Below, one piece after another: positions 6,342 through 38,781 of a stretch of 64,000 bases of DNA. Each line of letters begins with the position of its first letter. The stretch's first letter is position 1. Source of the DNA: Syntrophotalea acetylenivorans (GTDB taxonomy: Bacteria > Desulfobacterota > Desulfuromonadia > Desulfuromonadales > Syntrophotaleaceae); assembly GCF_001887775.1 (NCBI RefSeq), contig NZ_CP015519.1:3098001-3162000 (forward strand), written 5' to 3'. The notes beneath the pieces were generated by a model, which saw only the letters and a program-made list of their open reading frames with translations, made no database searches and had not been told where the DNA came from. The position numbers were made by a program, and so were the translations under genes.

Positions 6342-6500
6342 GAAGTTTTTATCCGAAAACGGCCCTTTCCCCCAATCTCGACGTCAGTCCGCACGCTTGC
6401 TTGACCTTGGGGAAAATTGCTCGTTTTCCATGTAAAAACCGCATAATGTCTATCCAAGGTTCCCGAATAGACACTTATTTATAAAGAGAGGGATGTGAAC

Positions 6501-33776: not shown

Positions 33777-33889
33777 CAGAGCCGGTTAGGGCGGTTAAAT
33801 TTGAATTCTGACCAGAAGAATCATATTAACGTTCAGTCGGCTTCAACATCCGGGTCGGCTCCCGCATTTTATCCCCAAGGAGGAAGACC

Positions 33890-34408
33890 ATGACCAAGGA
33901 ACGTACCGGCATAGTTACCATCCACGGCAACCCCCTGACCCTGCTCGGCCCCGAGATATCCGTTGGCGATCAAGCTCCTCCTTTTACCGTGGTCGATAAT
34001 GATCTCAAGCCCGTGACCCTCAACGACTCCAAAGGCAGGGTACGTTTGATTACGGTGGTCCCGTCTCTGGATACGCCGGTATGCGACACCATGATCCGCC
34101 GTTTTAACGAAGAGGCCGCAGGTTTGTCGGACGACCTTGTGGTTTACACGATCAGCGTCGATCTTCCCTTTGCCCAAAAACGCTGGTGCGGTGCCGCCGG
34201 TGTCGAGGGTGTGCAAACTCTGTCCGATTATCAGGAGCTTGATTTCGGCCTGCACTACGGTCTGCTGACCAAGGAGCTCAAGCTGCTGGCTCGGGCGGTG
34301 CTGGTGATCAATCGCGCCGGTAAGATCGTCTATTACCAACTGGTCAATGAAGTCGTCGATGAGCCCGATTATGCTGCGGCGCTGGAAGCAGTAAAGAAGC
34401 TGCTCTAG
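33890..34408 (+). CDS. tpx: Thiol peroxidase (atypical 2-Cys peroxiredoxin)
   Basis: The 172-residue thioredoxin-fold enzyme reduces peroxides. The peroxidatic Cys is in PSLDTPVCDTM (Cys about 65) and the resolving Cys in RWCGAAGV (about 100), the spacing typical of Tpx. A strong AGGAGG site stands seven bases before the ATG. It is probably a single-gene transcript, ending at the terminator 43 bases downstream. Confidence 0.96.
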   Translation: MTKERTGIVTIHGNPLTLLGPEISVGDQAPPFTVVDNDLKPVTLNDSKGRVRLITVVPSLDTPVCDTMIRRFNEEAAGLSDDLVVYTISVDLPFAQKRWCGAAGVEGVQTLSDYQELDFGLHYGLLTKELKLLARAVLVINRAGKIVYYQLVNEVVDEPDYAAALEAVKKLL

Positions 34409-34450
34409 CAGGCCCGACAACAGCTGAAGAACTCTGTTTAAGGCATTTAT

Positions 34451-34488
34451 AGAGCCCCCTGGTCGTAATCGATCGGGGGCTCTGCAGT
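34451..34488 (+). terminator. Terminator of tpx
   Basis: AGAGCCCCC (34451-34459) pairs perfectly with GGGGGCTCT (34475-34483) and is followed by a T run. Confidence 0.88.
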
Positions 34489-35142
34489 TTTTCGGGAAAA
34501 TTAAGACGCGATCGAATCATTTTGATGCTCTCGGTATTGGCGACATTTCTCTTTTGAGTTCTCCGGCTTGTTCTCTCTCCTTGCTTGAAGAGGTTTTTGG
34601 TCAATTAAATCCGCAAGGTCATGCCGCAGGAGAGATATGCTCTTTACGGACCGGTGGGGTGTTGATAAGGAGCAAATTGGCTGTGCCGAGCTTGAACCAG
34701 AGCAAAATCCAGGTAGCATTCTAAATAGATACAAAAGTCTCTGGGCAGTTCTGCGCCGCATGGGGACATCATCAAACCCGTGGCCTTGCAGACGGTTTCC
34801 AGCTCAGTAAGGCTGGCTTTCGGTTTCACGATGTGCCGCATCACCCTCTCTGAAATGTAAGTTTACTCAGGTCCAAAAACCGTTGGGAGCTCTGCCGTAA
34901 CCGTCTCAGTTGTCCAATAAAGGTGCACACCAGAGGATCGGCACTTAGGTCACCAGCCAAAGTTAGCTGGAGAAAGAACAGTGTGAATGGACCGCCGACC
35001 CTCTTGTCAGCCGGGTCACTTCACGGGAAAATCAAACGGCACAAGATCACGGCAAGGAACATTTGCAAGCACAAACGAGATCAAAGAAAGAGCCATTGGG
35101 CGCTTAGAATAATGGAAGAGAGAACCGGGAGGAGGGCAGGTG
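34489..35142. other. Gene-poor region before the ion channel gene
   Basis: About 650 bases hold no gene I can support. Minus-strand frames of 66 and 86 codons (34644-34844 and 34501-34761) overlap each other. Only the first has a weak GAGAGGG site, and neither resembles a known protein. The last 80 bases include the leader and the strong ribosome binding site of the channel gene. Confidence 0.4.
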
Positions 35143-37062
35143 ATGGGCGTTAGCCTAATGGTCAGATTGCAGAGGCTGAGATCGCGCCGAAGTGTGCAGA
35201 CTCTACTATTGCGGTCTCTGCTCTGGCTTGCTTTGGTGGCGTATTTTCTGGTTCCTCAGCCGGTCAGGGCGGCTCGTGCCGCCGTCCAGGAAATAATCGG
35301 CCGTGTCGAAACGGGTGAGCGGCTTGTCTACACCTTGCCTGATTTAAAAAAGGGCCAGACACTCTATGCTTATGCTCAAGGCATCTCGGATAGCCTTGAT
35401 CCCTTCCTGGTGCTGGTCCGGCCCGGCACCGACATCAGCGCTTTGCGCCAAGCCTTTAGCGTTGAGTTGGAGAAGACCATTGCCGCCGGGGGGGATCCGC
35501 TGGTCATGATTCCCGAATTTGCCGATCGTTACAATCTTGCGTGGGATGATGACAGCGCCCCTGGCTACGGTGCGAAACTGGAATTTCGCATCCCGCAAAA
35601 CGGAACTTATGTTTTGCAACTGCGCAGCGCCATAGCCCGGGAAACCTTCGGTGGTTTTCGTCTGCTGCTGGGGCTCGACGCCCCGGCCGTGCTCGGTGGC
35701 GAGGCTCGCTCGACCGGGGCGCGGATTGCCCTGCTGAATCGAACCGCCAGCAGCGGCCTTGCTCCGGTTCAGGAAACCAAGGTGACGATCAGCGCTGAGC
35801 GGCCGTCCACCTACCTGTTCCTGAATGGCGTTAAGGCCGGAGAAACCCTCTACCTTTACTTTGCGGGCCCCCCGAACAAGCCTCTGCCGACCTTCACCCT
35901 GCATGATTACGGCGACAAACCGGTGCGCAACAGCCAGCCCGGCGAACGACCCGGCATCGCACTGTTGGAGTATACCTTTCCCGCCGCCGCCGAAAACTAC
36001 CTGCTGCGCTTCAAGGGACAGATCAGCGAGGATACTTTGGCCGAAGGCAGTTTCCGCCTGCTGGCGGGTCTTGATGAACCGGCTGTCTTGACCGGCAATG
36101 TCGCGTCAGGCGGCAGAGCGCTCCTGAAACAGCCTGTGCCGGTGCAGGTCGGTCTGCGCCTGCAGCAGATCACCAGCGTCGACCAAAAGGCAGAGAACTT
36201 TGGCGTAGTGGCCACCCTGCAGATGCGCTGGCACGATCCGGCCCTGGCCTTCAGTCCCGATCGCTGCCAGTGTCCCTTTAAGCTGTTTCGCGACGAAGCC
36301 TTCGCCAAATTCGCCTCGGAGTCCCATATCCCCTGGCCGGAATTCACCATCTTCAACCAGCAGGGCAAACGCTGGGTACAGAATCGCTACGTGGTGGTCT
36401 TTCCGGAGGGCAACGCCGTCTACCTGGAGCGATTCTCCACCACCCTGCAAGCCCCCGACTTCAACTTTCGCCGTTTTCCCTTCGACCAACAGCAGTTCGC
36501 TATTCGCATCGACAATCTCTACCCCGAAGAATTCTTCGTGTTTCAACCTCTGGAGGAATTTAACCAGGTAGGCATGAAACTGGGCGAAGAGGAATGGGTG
36601 GTGGTCGATTCGACCGCCAGCGTCACAAGCGACCTGTCCAGTTCCTTGCGGCCGGTATCCCGGTTTAATTTCCAGTTCAAGGCCAAGCGGCATCTCACCT
36701 ACTATATCTTTCGCATTTTTCTGCCGTTGTTCGTGATTATCGCCGTTTCCTGGATTATCTTCTTTTCCAAGGATTACGCCAAACGGGTCGACGTTGCTGG
36801 CACCAACCTGCTGATTTTTGTCGCCTTCAACTTCACAGTTTCCGGCGATCTGCCACGCCTCGGTTATCTTACCTTCATGGACTCGATTATCGTTTCAGGT
36901 TTTCTGGTAACCAGCCTGGTGTTGGTTTTCAACGTCATCATTCGGCGCCTGGAACTGACCGGTATGATCAAATGGGTACAGAAAGTTGATCAGTACATGC
37001 TGTGGATCTATCCGCTCTTTTACCTGGCGGCGGTGCTGATCGTCACCCTGGCTTTTGACTGA
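35143..37062 (+). CDS. Pentameric ligand-gated ion channel, DeCLIC-like
   Basis: The 639-residue protein matches bacterial Cys-loop-superfamily channels. After a signal peptide (about 1-40) comes a large extra N-terminal domain built of two similar beta modules, ending in FRLLLGLDAPAVL and FRLLAGLDEPAVL. The ligand-binding domain (from about 335) has the RRFPFDQQ core of the Cys-less loop. The pore has four helices: M1 (about 519-540, YYIFRIFLPLFVIIAVSW), M2 (about 547-572, LLIFVAFNFTVSGDLPRLGY), M3 (about 577-600) and M4 (about 616-638). The double N-terminal domain is the architecture of DeCLIC from a Desulfofustis deltaproteobacterium, whose structure is known. Ligand and physiological role are unknown. 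The ATG at 35143 is seven bases from AGGAGG. Confidence 0.9.
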   Translation: MGVSLMVRLQRLRSRRSVQTLLLRSLLWLALVAYFLVPQPVRAARAAVQEIIGRVETGERLVYTLPDLKKGQTLYAYAQGISDSLDPFLVLVRPGTDISALRQAFSVELEKTIAAGGDPLVMIPEFADRYNLAWDDDSAPGYGAKLEFRIPQNGTYVLQLRSAIARETFGGFRLLLGLDAPAVLGGEARSTGARIALLNRTASSGLAPVQETKVTISAERPSTYLFLNGVKAGETLYLYFAGPPNKPLPTFTLHDYGDKPVRNSQPGERPGIALLEYTFPAAAENYLLRFKGQISEDTLAEGSFRLLAGLDEPAVLTGNVASGGRALLKQPVPVQVGLRLQQITSVDQKAENFGVVATLQMRWHDPALAFSPDRCQCPFKLFRDEAFAKFASESHIPWPEFTIFNQQGKRWVQNRYVVVFPEGNAVYLERFSTTLQAPDFNFRRFPFDQQQFAIRIDNLYPEEFFVFQPLEEFNQVGMKLGEEEWVVVDSTASVTSDLSSSLRPVSRFNFQFKAKRHLTYYIFRIFLPLFVIIAVSWIIFFSKDYAKRVDVAGTNLLIFVAFNFTVSGDLPRLGYLTFMDSIIVSGFLVTSLVLVFNVIIRRLELTGMIKWVQKVDQYMLWIYPLFYLAAVLIVTLAFD

Positions 37063-37479
37063 TTTTCCGCTTTAACTATGCTGCGCAGAATTCACAAGCG
37101 ATGACCCGGGTATGCGTTTACTTTTATCCGTTGTCTGCTAGCCTTGAATTTGTATGCCGGTACTAATAGAAAAAATAGAACTACTTGTATCAAATCAGAA
37201 GAGGTGAGAGGAGAAACCCTGTTCGTTCGTGTTCTACTCAAAATATCGGTAAGTGTACCTGATTGACGGCAGAGAGATTAGTCACCAAACGACATCTTTT
37301 CGCCCCTGCGCTTATTGGATGGGTCATAAAGGGAAGGACTGTTTTGTAGGTTGGTAGGTGTTTGTTGCCTCACAGGGAAAGCCATGATTCATCGGTTGCC
37401 AGGTGGTAGAGGTGATTTGGTTGAGTTTTGCCGCCTTGCTTGCAACATATGCTCAGAGTTTTTTTGAAAGGAGTTCGCA
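37063..37479. other. Non-coding region between the channel and SYLF genes
   Basis: About 417 bases, AT-richer than the neighbours, with no supported open frame. The last 20 bases hold an AAAGGAG site for the next gene. I see no clear terminator or promoter. Confidence 0.4.
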
Positions 37480-38043
37480 ATGAAATCCATTCATTTTTCT
37501 CCGTCATGCATTGTCTGGTTGGTCCTGTTGCTGATTATCGGTTTTGGACGGCAGGCAGTCTATGCCGATTCTGCGGCCGAGATTGACCAAAAGGTCAAGG
37601 TGGGGTTGGCGGATCTTTACGCGGGTTCGCCGACGGCACTGGAATTTTCCAAAGTCGCCAAGGGAATCCTGGTGTTTCCGGATGTGGTGAAGGCCGGCCT
37701 GGTGATCGGCGGACAATTTGGCGAGGGGGCCCTGCTGGTGGATGGTGCGACCGTCGGCTATTACAACACCGTTGCGGCCTCCTATGGTCTGCAGGTCGGA
37801 GCCCAGTCTTTCGGTTACGCCATGTTCCTGATGACCGACGAAGCCTTGAGCTATTTGCAAAAAAGCAGTGGTTGGGAGGTCGGCGTAGGACCCACCATCG
37901 TAGTGGTGGATAAGGGAAAGGCGGGCAGTTTGACCACCTCGACCGCTAAGGAAGATATCTACGCCTTCTTCTTTGATCAGAAAGGACTGATGGCAGGTCT
38001 TGGGCTACAAGGTTCGAAGATCAGCAAGATAACCCCGGATTGA
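37480..38043 (+). CDS. SYLF-domain (YSC84-like) exported protein
   Basis: The 187-residue protein has a signal peptide (about 1-29) followed by one SYLF/DUF500 domain: ALEFSKVAKGILVFPDVVKAGLVIGG at its head, then GYYNTVAASYGLQVG, and GVGPTIVVVDKG at its end. Eukaryotic SYLF domains bind phosphoinositides; the bacterial exported forms have no settled role and are thought to be lipid-associated in the envelope. It appears to be transcribed alone. Confidence 0.88.
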   Translation: MKSIHFSPSCIVWLVLLLIIGFGRQAVYADSAAEIDQKVKVGLADLYAGSPTALEFSKVAKGILVFPDVVKAGLVIGGQFGEGALLVDGATVGYYNTVAASYGLQVGAQSFGYAMFLMTDEALSYLQKSSGWEVGVGPTIVVVDKGKAGSLTTSTAKEDIYAFFFDQKGLMAGLGLQGSKISKITPD

Positions 38044-38278
38044 TAACAAGTACCTTGCGCAAGTATTGGAGTCGTCATTCACCGCTGGCAGCACTGTAAC
38101 GGTTTGTTTATGGGAACTAGATTATAAAAATCACAAACCTGTTAATGGTGTTTTTGTACAGATTTTTGGCAACTGCTCTGGCGCCTCCGGCCGGGGCCAT
38201 ATCACCCAAGATGATGGCCACGATGGCCTACTAAATTTACAGCACTATACGAACTGAACTAACTCATAGGATGGCTAA

Positions 38279-38396
38279 AAAAAAATTCGTCTTATTAATG
38301 CTTGGTGTTTTTCAAGGGCGAAGGCATACATCTCGTATGTCGAGGTCCTGAAAAAATGCCGTAACGCCGTAGAGCGGACCTTTTGCAACGCCATCA
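38279..38396. repeat. Dispersed structured repeat, family C (copy 2, inverted)
   Basis: This is the reverse complement of the copy at 27278-27395, with many substitutions. The CATAC/GTATG inner stem is kept and the TTTTTCAGG arm is nearly intact. It lies between the SYLF gene and the next exported-protein gene. Confidence 0.85.
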
Positions 38397-38448
38397 AATA
38401 TGGTCTGGCAGAGTGAGGCCTATCTTTTTCTTGAAAGGAGAAACAAAA

Positions 38449-38781
38449 ATGAAGCAAACCTTGATGGTCGCATGTGTTTCGATTTTTTTGTTCATGGCGG
38501 TTTCGTTATCCTTTGCAGATTCGCATGAAATGAAGAAGGAAATGGCCAAAGTTGCAAAACCTCTCTCCCTGATTACCGAAACGCCACAGCAAGGATTTGA
38601 CCTGGCTGTTAAATTAGCCCGCATCGGAGTTAAAACGACCCAGCCAGACAAAGAGGTTTTGTTTAAATTGCGTGAAATTTATGCCAATGATGCCGATTCG
38701 CTCATTGCCTGCTCGCAGGTGATCGCCATTCACTTCCAAACAGTTGCGGCTGCGAATAATTATTGGAGAGGGAGTAAGTAG
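38449..38781 (+). CDS. Small exported protein of unknown function
   Basis: The 110-residue product has a clear signal peptide (about 1-24: two Lys-side residues, a hydrophobic core, then SFADS). A mature helical domain rich in Lys and Ala follows, ending NYWRGSK, with a single Cys. A GAAAGGAG site lies eight bases before the ATG at 38449, which decides the start over the longer frame from 38383. I do not recognise a family. It lies after the SYLF gene, but the repeat between them may break co-transcription. Confidence 0.7.
   Translation: MKQTLMVACVSIFLFMAVSLSFADSHEMKKEMAKVAKPLSLITETPQQGFDLAVKLARIGVKTTQPDKEVLFKLREIYANDADSLIACSQVIAIHFQTVAAANNYWRGSK

Follow-up and report, generated by a model that had tools for sequence, protein, structure and literature searches.

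We detected, in the window (the whole stretch of 64,000 nucleotides of Syntrophotalea acetylenivorans DNA analyzed here), an intact gene for a DeCLIC-type pentameric ligand-gated ion channel (pLGIC) that, judging from the sequence, appears to be the leftover of an Mla/MCE lipid-transport operon which the sister species (genome G002) retains. What is new here is the collapsed Mla operon upstream of the channel and the recurrence of this gene pairing elsewhere; among the matches listed for the open-licence literature there was no paper on a pairing of pLGIC with Mla, Pqi, or MCE genes. DeCLIC, GLIC, and ELIC serve as models of animal neurotransmitter receptors. The Mla/Pqi-channel gene order in four families, together with SYLF-domain neighbors and conserved calcium sites, makes the bacterial role of such channels testable, the question being whether the channel reports the loss of divalent cations at the envelope and acts with lipid transport.

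Relics of a probable lipid-transport operon

In G002, the channel ortholog lies on contig JABXKU010000079.1 and is preceded, all on the same strand, by genes for a STAS-MlaE protein (PF02405, E 3e-70), an ABC ATPase (MlaF, E 1e-27), MlaD (PF02470, E 5e-11), and an ABC_trans_aux/PqiC lipoprotein (PF03886, E 3e-37). The intergenic gaps from mlaE to pqiC measure 15, 13, and -4 nt, and the first ATG of the channel lies 5 nt past the PqiC stop, with an in-frame GTG overlapping that stop (GTGA). Because of this close spacing, we infer that the genes from MlaE to the channel form one operon in G002. Downstream of the channel, genes for a DUF4136 protein, a MipA-OmpA protein, and a Cys-rich repeat protein follow on the same strand, an arrangement common to G001. 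MipA genes near pLGICs were found in G002 (two loci) and G069.

The first-pass annotation described the window gene as standing alone in a gene-poor region. The flanking gaps (731 nt upstream and 417 nt downstream) agree with this description; the upstream gap, however, holds apparent relics of the lost operon (Table 1). The more extensive one is the 3' part of a PqiC gene broken by indels, which was matched by tblastn at 34862-35053 (36% over 64 aa, E 8e-4) and by blastn (72% over 83 nt, E 8e-6); its local score of 55 was reached by 0 of 1000 dinucleotide shuffles, the best of which scored 33. A probable remnant of the operon leader (blastn E 0.001) scored 42, against a best of 33 among 1000 dinucleotide shuffles. 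Both relics stand in the G002 order, between the redoxin gene and the channel. GTGA is found at the equivalent place in the window and in G002, and the TGA that overlaps the channel ATG would be homologous to the PqiC stop of G002. No relics of mlaEFD were found in the window, the score obtained being reached by 490 of 1000 shuffles. For the genes that follow the channel in G002, a candidate relic in the 37063-37479 gap (score 32, reached by 3 of 1000 shuffles) was not used. Two MlaE loci lie elsewhere in the window's genome, in which six MCE domains were matched.

The simplest history of the window would be a deletion that reached from the leader into pqiC and spared the channel. A deletion is preferred because an insertion in G002 would leave the PqiC remnant unexplained.

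Table 1. Positions of the channel gene, its domains, and neighboring features in the window
Feature	Positions	Strand	Basis or remark
Redoxin (thiol peroxidase-like), upstream neighbor	33890..34408	+	
Probable operon-leader remnant, 61 nt, 74% identical to DNA 225 nt upstream of G002 mlaE	34681..34741	+	
Decayed PqiC/ABC_trans_aux lipoprotein gene, 3' part, indel-broken	34930..35038	+	tblastn, blastn, shuffles
Ribosome-binding site AGGAGG	35130..35135	+	7 nt 5' of channel ATG (sequence)
TGA at place of G002 PqiC stop, overlapping channel ATG (TGATG)	35141..35143	+	sequence comparison
DeCLIC-type pentameric ligand-gated ion channel subunit, 639 aa	35143..37062	+	homology, intact ORF
Putative N-terminal signal / membrane segment, residues 1-45	35143..35277	+	sequence
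NTD1, residues 46-190, duplication copy 1, with site-1 carboxylates D86, D136, D137	35278..35712	+	
NTD2, residues 191-327, duplication copy 2	35713..36123	+	hhalign with NTD1
Periplasmic ligand-binding domain (LBD), residues 328-515, with calcium site 3	36124..36687	+	sequence, Pfam, alignment
Four-helix transmembrane domain (TMD), residues 516-639	36688..37059	+	M1-M4 assigned via DeCLIC homology
SYLF/Ysc84-domain protein, next gene downstream of channel	37480..38043	+	family recurs near pLGICs

The channel gene and its protein

The reading frame of the channel starts at 35140 (GTG) or 35143 (ATG), ends with the TGA at 37060-37062, and is open throughout. A phmmer search against the PDB aligned the channel's residues 19-638 with positions 6-635 of chain 6v4a_A (E 1.9e-136), end to end and collinear over NTD1, NTD2, LBD, and TMD. 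This bears out the DeCLIC-like identity proposed in the first-pass annotation, which had looked to homology with DeCLIC in a profile search as one of the points on which its claim would turn. The best further match was 9ftg, whose aligned letters are identical to those of 6v4a. In total, 232 distinct PDB sequences matched at E up to 0.001, and the best 60 of these 232 are DeCLIC, 6fl9-type, and GLIC entries that cover the channel up to residues 636-638. We take PDB entry 6v4a to be DeCLIC. All 14 distinct residues named in PMC12664993 fit chain 6v4a_A.

The channel was matched by the Pfam family Neur_chan_LBD (PF02931, E 6e-14), with one such match in the window's own genome, and PF02932 was not among its Pfam matches at E up to 1; the TMD is assigned because the DeCLIC, 6fl9, and GLIC matches cover it. 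By analogy with these channels the protein would assemble as a pentamer. Residues 1-45 may act as a signal peptide. Two smaller observations of the first pass were found as described: FPFD stands where the center of the Cys-loop would be, and a strong ribosome-binding site, AGGAGG, precedes the ATG. Loop F reads GEEE. No Rfam family reached its gathering score within 33800-38100. Scans for promoters (3 promoter-like sites against 1.3 expected) and terminators (4 against 4.2 expected) gave no signal. A foreign origin of the gene was considered and rejected, its GC3 of 0.69 falling inside the range of six neighbors (0.61-0.72).

The N-terminal domain (NTD) had been read as an internal duplication, and an alignment of its two modules bears this out. 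Five-sequence profiles of NTD1 and NTD2 aligned in hhalign with an E of 3e-12 (probability 97.6%, score 74, 110 columns), against a best score of 16.9 in column shuffles of NTD2, 0 of 100 of which reached the real value; comparison of the NTD with the LBD (ECD) or TMD gave E 0.2-0.7. In this alignment the FRLL(L/A)GLD.PAVL ends of both copies are in register, FRLLAGLDEPAVL of NTD2 repeating FRLLLGLDAPAVL of NTD1, and a direct blastp comparison gave 35% identity over 75 aa. Each lobe is probably a jelly-roll by analogy with DeCLIC, whose NTD1 and NTD2 are described as largely homologous jelly rolls resembling calcium-binding jelly-roll domains found in secreted enzymes (PMC12664993). Since DeCLIC has both lobes, the two-lobe NTD was already known and is not peculiar to the window protein. 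The main text of the survey PMC4795631 does not contain the term "N-terminal".

We compared the window channel with the four calcium sites of DeCLIC as given in PMC12664993. All nine ligand positions of sites 1 and 3 are identical, with D76/P77/D123/D124/Y129 of DeCLIC corresponding to D86/P87/D136/D137/Y142 of the window (site 1) and E347/P434/F436/L477 to E351/P438/F440/L480 (site 3). At site 2, D137 and G141 are retained and A139 replaces G126 of DeCLIC; at site 4, G481 and E483 (E480 in DeCLIC) are retained and K479 replaces Q476. The changed positions, one at each site, are backbone ligands in DeCLIC. The more distant channels of G501 and G529 have N and H at two of the site-1 positions. 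DeCLIC is reported to be activated upon calcium depletion, although in cryo-EM structures its pore is closed whether or not calcium is present (PMC9897478); removal of calcium makes its NTD more mobile (PMC12664993). By analogy, the window channel is predicted to be calcium-inhibited and cation-selective.

Distribution and selective constraint

The distribution of pLGICs within the phylum is patchy, and those with a DeCLIC-type NTD are rarer. Within the order, the protein had matches in 10 of 136 genomes (E up to 0.001), and full-length DeCLIC-type genes occur in the window's genome (G000) and in G002, G001 having an end piece on a contig that starts inside the gene. The complete gene is thus present in 2 of the 5 same-genus genomes (G000 and G002), and no channel match was found in G003 (67% complete) or G004 (99% complete) of the same genus. 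The phylum sample gave matches in 18 of 395 genomes and one further full-length gene, in G501; the class of G501, with matches in 4 of 29 genomes, added the full-length gene of G529, and 34 of 148 genomes belonging to the class of G354 contain the LBD family. Viral contigs gave one pattern match and no relative of the channel, and plasmids a single weak match (46% cover, 26% identity) in a Legionella record.

Two broken copies were observed. In G008 (L040:5901-6164) there is a remnant covering residues 552-639 only, 89% identical, that adjoins a presumably HflC-like gene and is probably the result of a recent loss. The DeCLIC-type gene of G324 (L041:4303-5206) is without residues 89-434, with its pieces in different frames; this gap is either a deletion or an assembly fault.

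The window gene and its G002 ortholog (84% identity) show an overall dN/dS of 0.114, with 0.040 in the TMD and 0.278 in the first 45 residues, which are the fastest evolving. With G501, G529, and DeCLIC as outgroups, 26 amino-acid changes were assigned to the window branch and 29 to the G002 branch, 47 being ambiguous. As far as its sequence tells, the window gene is without sign of decay.

Recurrence of the channel beside Mla and Pqi genes

Stretches of up to 20 kb around the other pLGICs of the phylum were searched by tblastn with MCE, MlaE, MlaF, PqiC, and MipA queries. The 64 stretches, which include the G008 remnant and leave the window aside, consist of 25 that came out of the initial surveys and 39 that belong to the class of G354 and were collected after the hypothesis. 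Same-strand MCE genes stand directly upstream of the pLGIC, with gene ends within 1.5 kb, in 4 of the 64 (G002, G497, G488, and G577), representing four families, three besides that of G002, and transporters of both the Mla and the Pqi subtype. G497 has a PqiA gene (Pfam), a second PqiA-like frame assigned by sequence likeness only, a gene for a 776-aa protein with six MCE matches, and the channel 328 nt on. The order in G488 is PqiA, PqiB (MCE), PqiC, CorA, and channel, and in G577, the sole pairing among the fresh 39, it is MlaE, MlaF, MlaD, and channel; the G577 set is damaged or badly sequenced, because its MlaE match begins at residue 189 and its MCE match is divided between two frames. 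Of the four channels, that of G002 alone is of the DeCLIC type, those of G497, G488, and G577 having 355-381 codons, too few for an NTD. In G059 (L090), an MlaE-F-D set is found about 2.2 kb away from a pLGIC fragment of 111 aa; this case was not counted among the four, since its channel is incomplete and is located upstream of the MlaE-F-D genes. In G488 (L085:9737-15169), the CorA-type gene between PqiC and the pLGIC encodes a divalent-cation transporter and is a second link to divalent cations.

For the chance estimate, 64 loci were used, leaving out G001 (contig starting inside the gene) and G008 (remnant), and 229 MCE domain matches were counted in 50 genomes. An MCE match within 4 kb upstream on the same strand was found in 4 of 64 against 0.149 expected at random (P 1.8e-5), and 0.074 would be expected within 2 kb (P 1.2e-6); these and the following P values are rough, because the loci are related within families and the 64 are not independent draws, and the expected counts overstate chance in treating each MCE domain as if it were its own gene. 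We put the 4 kb figure ahead of the 2 kb one since G488 is borderline at 2 kb if measured to the MCE domain and not to the gene end. Without the founding locus G002, the count falls to 3 of 63, for which P is 5e-4 at 4 kb and 6e-5 at 2 kb, and the fresh set alone gives 1 of 39 (P 0.09 at 4 kb, 0.04 at 2 kb). If MCE genes on either side and strand within 4 kb are counted, 0.69 are expected (P 0.005 for 4).

An MCE linkage conserved in most members was not found (4 of 64 stretches), as tblastn detected no co-directional upstream MCE gene in 60 of the 64. Contig ends do not explain most of these absences, because among the 63 stretches in which the channel position could be measured, the upstream sequence is shorter than 2.5 kb in only 12 and shorter than 4.5 kb in only 18. 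Both the 4 kb rate and these flank lengths make the pairing less striking.

SYLF-domain and other neighbors

The SYLF domain has a lipid role, and a gene of this family directly follows the window channel. With 36 SYLF matches distributed among 22 of 50 genomes, 5 of 64 pLGIC loci have one no more than 4 kb away (G000, G041, G060, G358, and G483, from four families; the G041 match is below the Pfam cut-off), against 0.108 expected (P 1e-7). As the idea was raised by the window locus itself, we also give the count without the window, which is 4 of 63 (P 5e-6), or P 2e-4 if G041 and G060, of one family, are counted once. At this place in G001 (L009:3189-3282) and G002 (L039:11298-11334), the only match to the Ysc84 gene of the window was a piece resembling its 3' end, whereas the window has the gene whole, the reverse of the pattern of the Mla genes.

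The upstream redoxin is probably outside the channel system, and its relative in G002 is on another contig than the channel. A gene for a hexameric tyrosine-coordinated heme protein (HTHP; PF11534, E 4e-38) lies at 38383-38781 of the window. At 6345-6481, the window has two stretches 79-88% identical (E about 1e-14) to DNA that precedes a glycine-zipper gene of G002 (L039 575-633 and 746-830), possibly a dispersed repeat.

Other long architectures were also seen. G093 (L091:11680-13914) encodes a 744-aa pLGIC with a different long N-terminal part, perhaps a periplasmic-binding-protein fusion like those of a 2004 survey (PMC549065). The pLGIC matches in G568 (L115) and G622 (L124) are located in open frames of 1093 aa and 826 aa, respectively, which may be additional long architectures.

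Proposed role and alternative explanations

We hypothesize that the channel is a calcium-gated envelope sensor of the DeCLIC type, tied to outer-membrane lipid homeostasis through its former Mla/MCE operon, a tentative explanation whose probability we place appreciably below even. The channel would be a homopentameric, cation-permeable protein of the inner membrane, in which the LBD and the two tandem jelly-roll lobes bind calcium, partly at subunit interfaces, and the pore is held shut. Divalent cations stabilize LPS packing. Damage to the outer membrane or chelation would lower periplasmic calcium, sites 1 and 3 would become empty, the NTD lobes would loosen, and the pore would open. The earlier setting would have been an inter-membrane lipid-transport operon in the order MlaE-MlaF-MlaD-PqiC-channel, Mla being a system that maintains outer-membrane asymmetry according to published abstracts; from such a setting it would follow that the channel most likely signals or responds to divalent-cation stress in the outer membrane and periplasm, in coordination with lipid transport. 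In the window lineage, a deletion would have removed mlaEFD and most of pqiC and brought the channel near the old leader, and it would since then have persisted as an intact, constrained, stand-alone gene.

Homology, duplication, calcium ligands, selection, the G002 gene order, the relics, and the recurrence of the pairing, all observed in this analysis, are the basis of this explanation; the pentamer and the calcium gating would carry over from DeCLIC, and it is gene order that suggests the functional tie to lipid transport. Counting against this explanation, three of the four paired channels are not of the DeCLIC type, other MCE genes are kept in the window's genome, the G002 channel is itself followed by more genes on its strand, and the pore of DeCLIC is closed in cryo-EM structures even without calcium. 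Nor is the Mla operon needed by the channel, which persists in the window's genome although the pairing is lost there.

A rival reading, to which we give a probability not far short of even, sees the channel as an ordinary stand-alone, calcium-inhibited DeCLIC ortholog that senses small molecules or ions in the periplasm, for example in motility or ion balance, its position beside lipid genes being incidental. The sequence and calcium sites resemble those of DeCLIC, the gene is intact and constrained after the loss of the operon, and 60 of 64 stretches are without the upstream MCE neighbor. The 2004 survey proposed chemoreception for such channels, with PBP-II, Cache, and one Na+/H+ symporter gene as neighbors (PMC549065), and no word beginning with "lipid" was found in its text. 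However, the similar gene order in four families, with Mla and Pqi subtypes and above random expectation, and the recurring SYLF neighbors are less readily accommodated by an incidental position. The lipid-handling neighbors (MCE and PqiC genes and SYLF/Ysc84) would in turn suit a channel whose ligand is not calcium but a lipid or lysolipid set free when the outer membrane is damaged, the NTD or LBD sampling lipids passed on by MCE proteins and calcium only setting the threshold. Lipid modulation of pLGICs is a reviewed subject (PMC9221113), but the NTD lobes are like calcium-binding domains of secreted enzymes (PMC12664993), and we regard this reading as improbable. It is very unlikely, finally, that the channel is a decaying leftover of the collapsed operon, on its way out in the window lineage: losses in the nearby G003 and G004, the G008 remnant, and the gap in the more distant G324 would be in line with such a fate, but the 639 codons in frame, the dN/dS of 0.114, the good ribosome-binding site, and a count of changes no higher on the window branch than on that of G002 (26 against 29) argue against it.

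The envelope-sensor explanation can be extended to bacterial pLGICs more broadly, at least those of the DeCLIC type and some relatives, as working parts or sensors of MCE lipid-transport systems, which we regard as doubtful. Falling periplasmic calcium would then open the pLGIC, and ion flux or a conformational change would adjust the traffic of phospholipids between the membranes. If this were true, the bacterial relatives of neurotransmitter receptors would gain a role in envelope homeostasis.

Comparison with known systems

The window channel and DeCLIC, the Desulfofustis pLGIC (6v4s, 7q3g, 9ev1, and others carry the same sequence as 6v4a), have in common the two-lobe NTD, the LBD without Cys-loop cysteines, the four-helix TMD, and the GEEE of loop F. 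In the five-sequence alignment they are 39.4% identical over 614 aligned residues, with 40.3% in NTD1, 20.6% in NTD2, 46.8% in the LBD, and 51.2% in the TMD. M2 of the window channel closely resembles that of DeCLIC. Near its inner end, acidic residues occupy two positions, D544 and D550 in the window and D and E in DeCLIC, and these would be the two acidic rings mentioned for the cytoplasmic mouth of DeCLIC (PMC9897478).

The entry 6fl9, named "Cys-loop ligand-gated ion channel", matches window residues 327-638 with its LBD and TMD (E 5e-90); its solved chain has 320 residues, is matched from its residue 4, and is without an NTD. We take it to be sTeLIC. GLIC, the proton-gated channel of Gloeobacter (Glr4197), likewise shares the LBD and TMD (E about 1e-26), the matched chains of 310-359 residues being without an NTD and their similarity far lower than that of DeCLIC. 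Among Mla and Pqi (MCE) systems, the G002 set of MlaE, ABC ATPase, MlaD, and a PqiC-like lipoprotein has a mixed Mla-Pqi make-up, and a chimeric Mla-Pqi system (Mpc) has been described in Brucella (PMC12436622).
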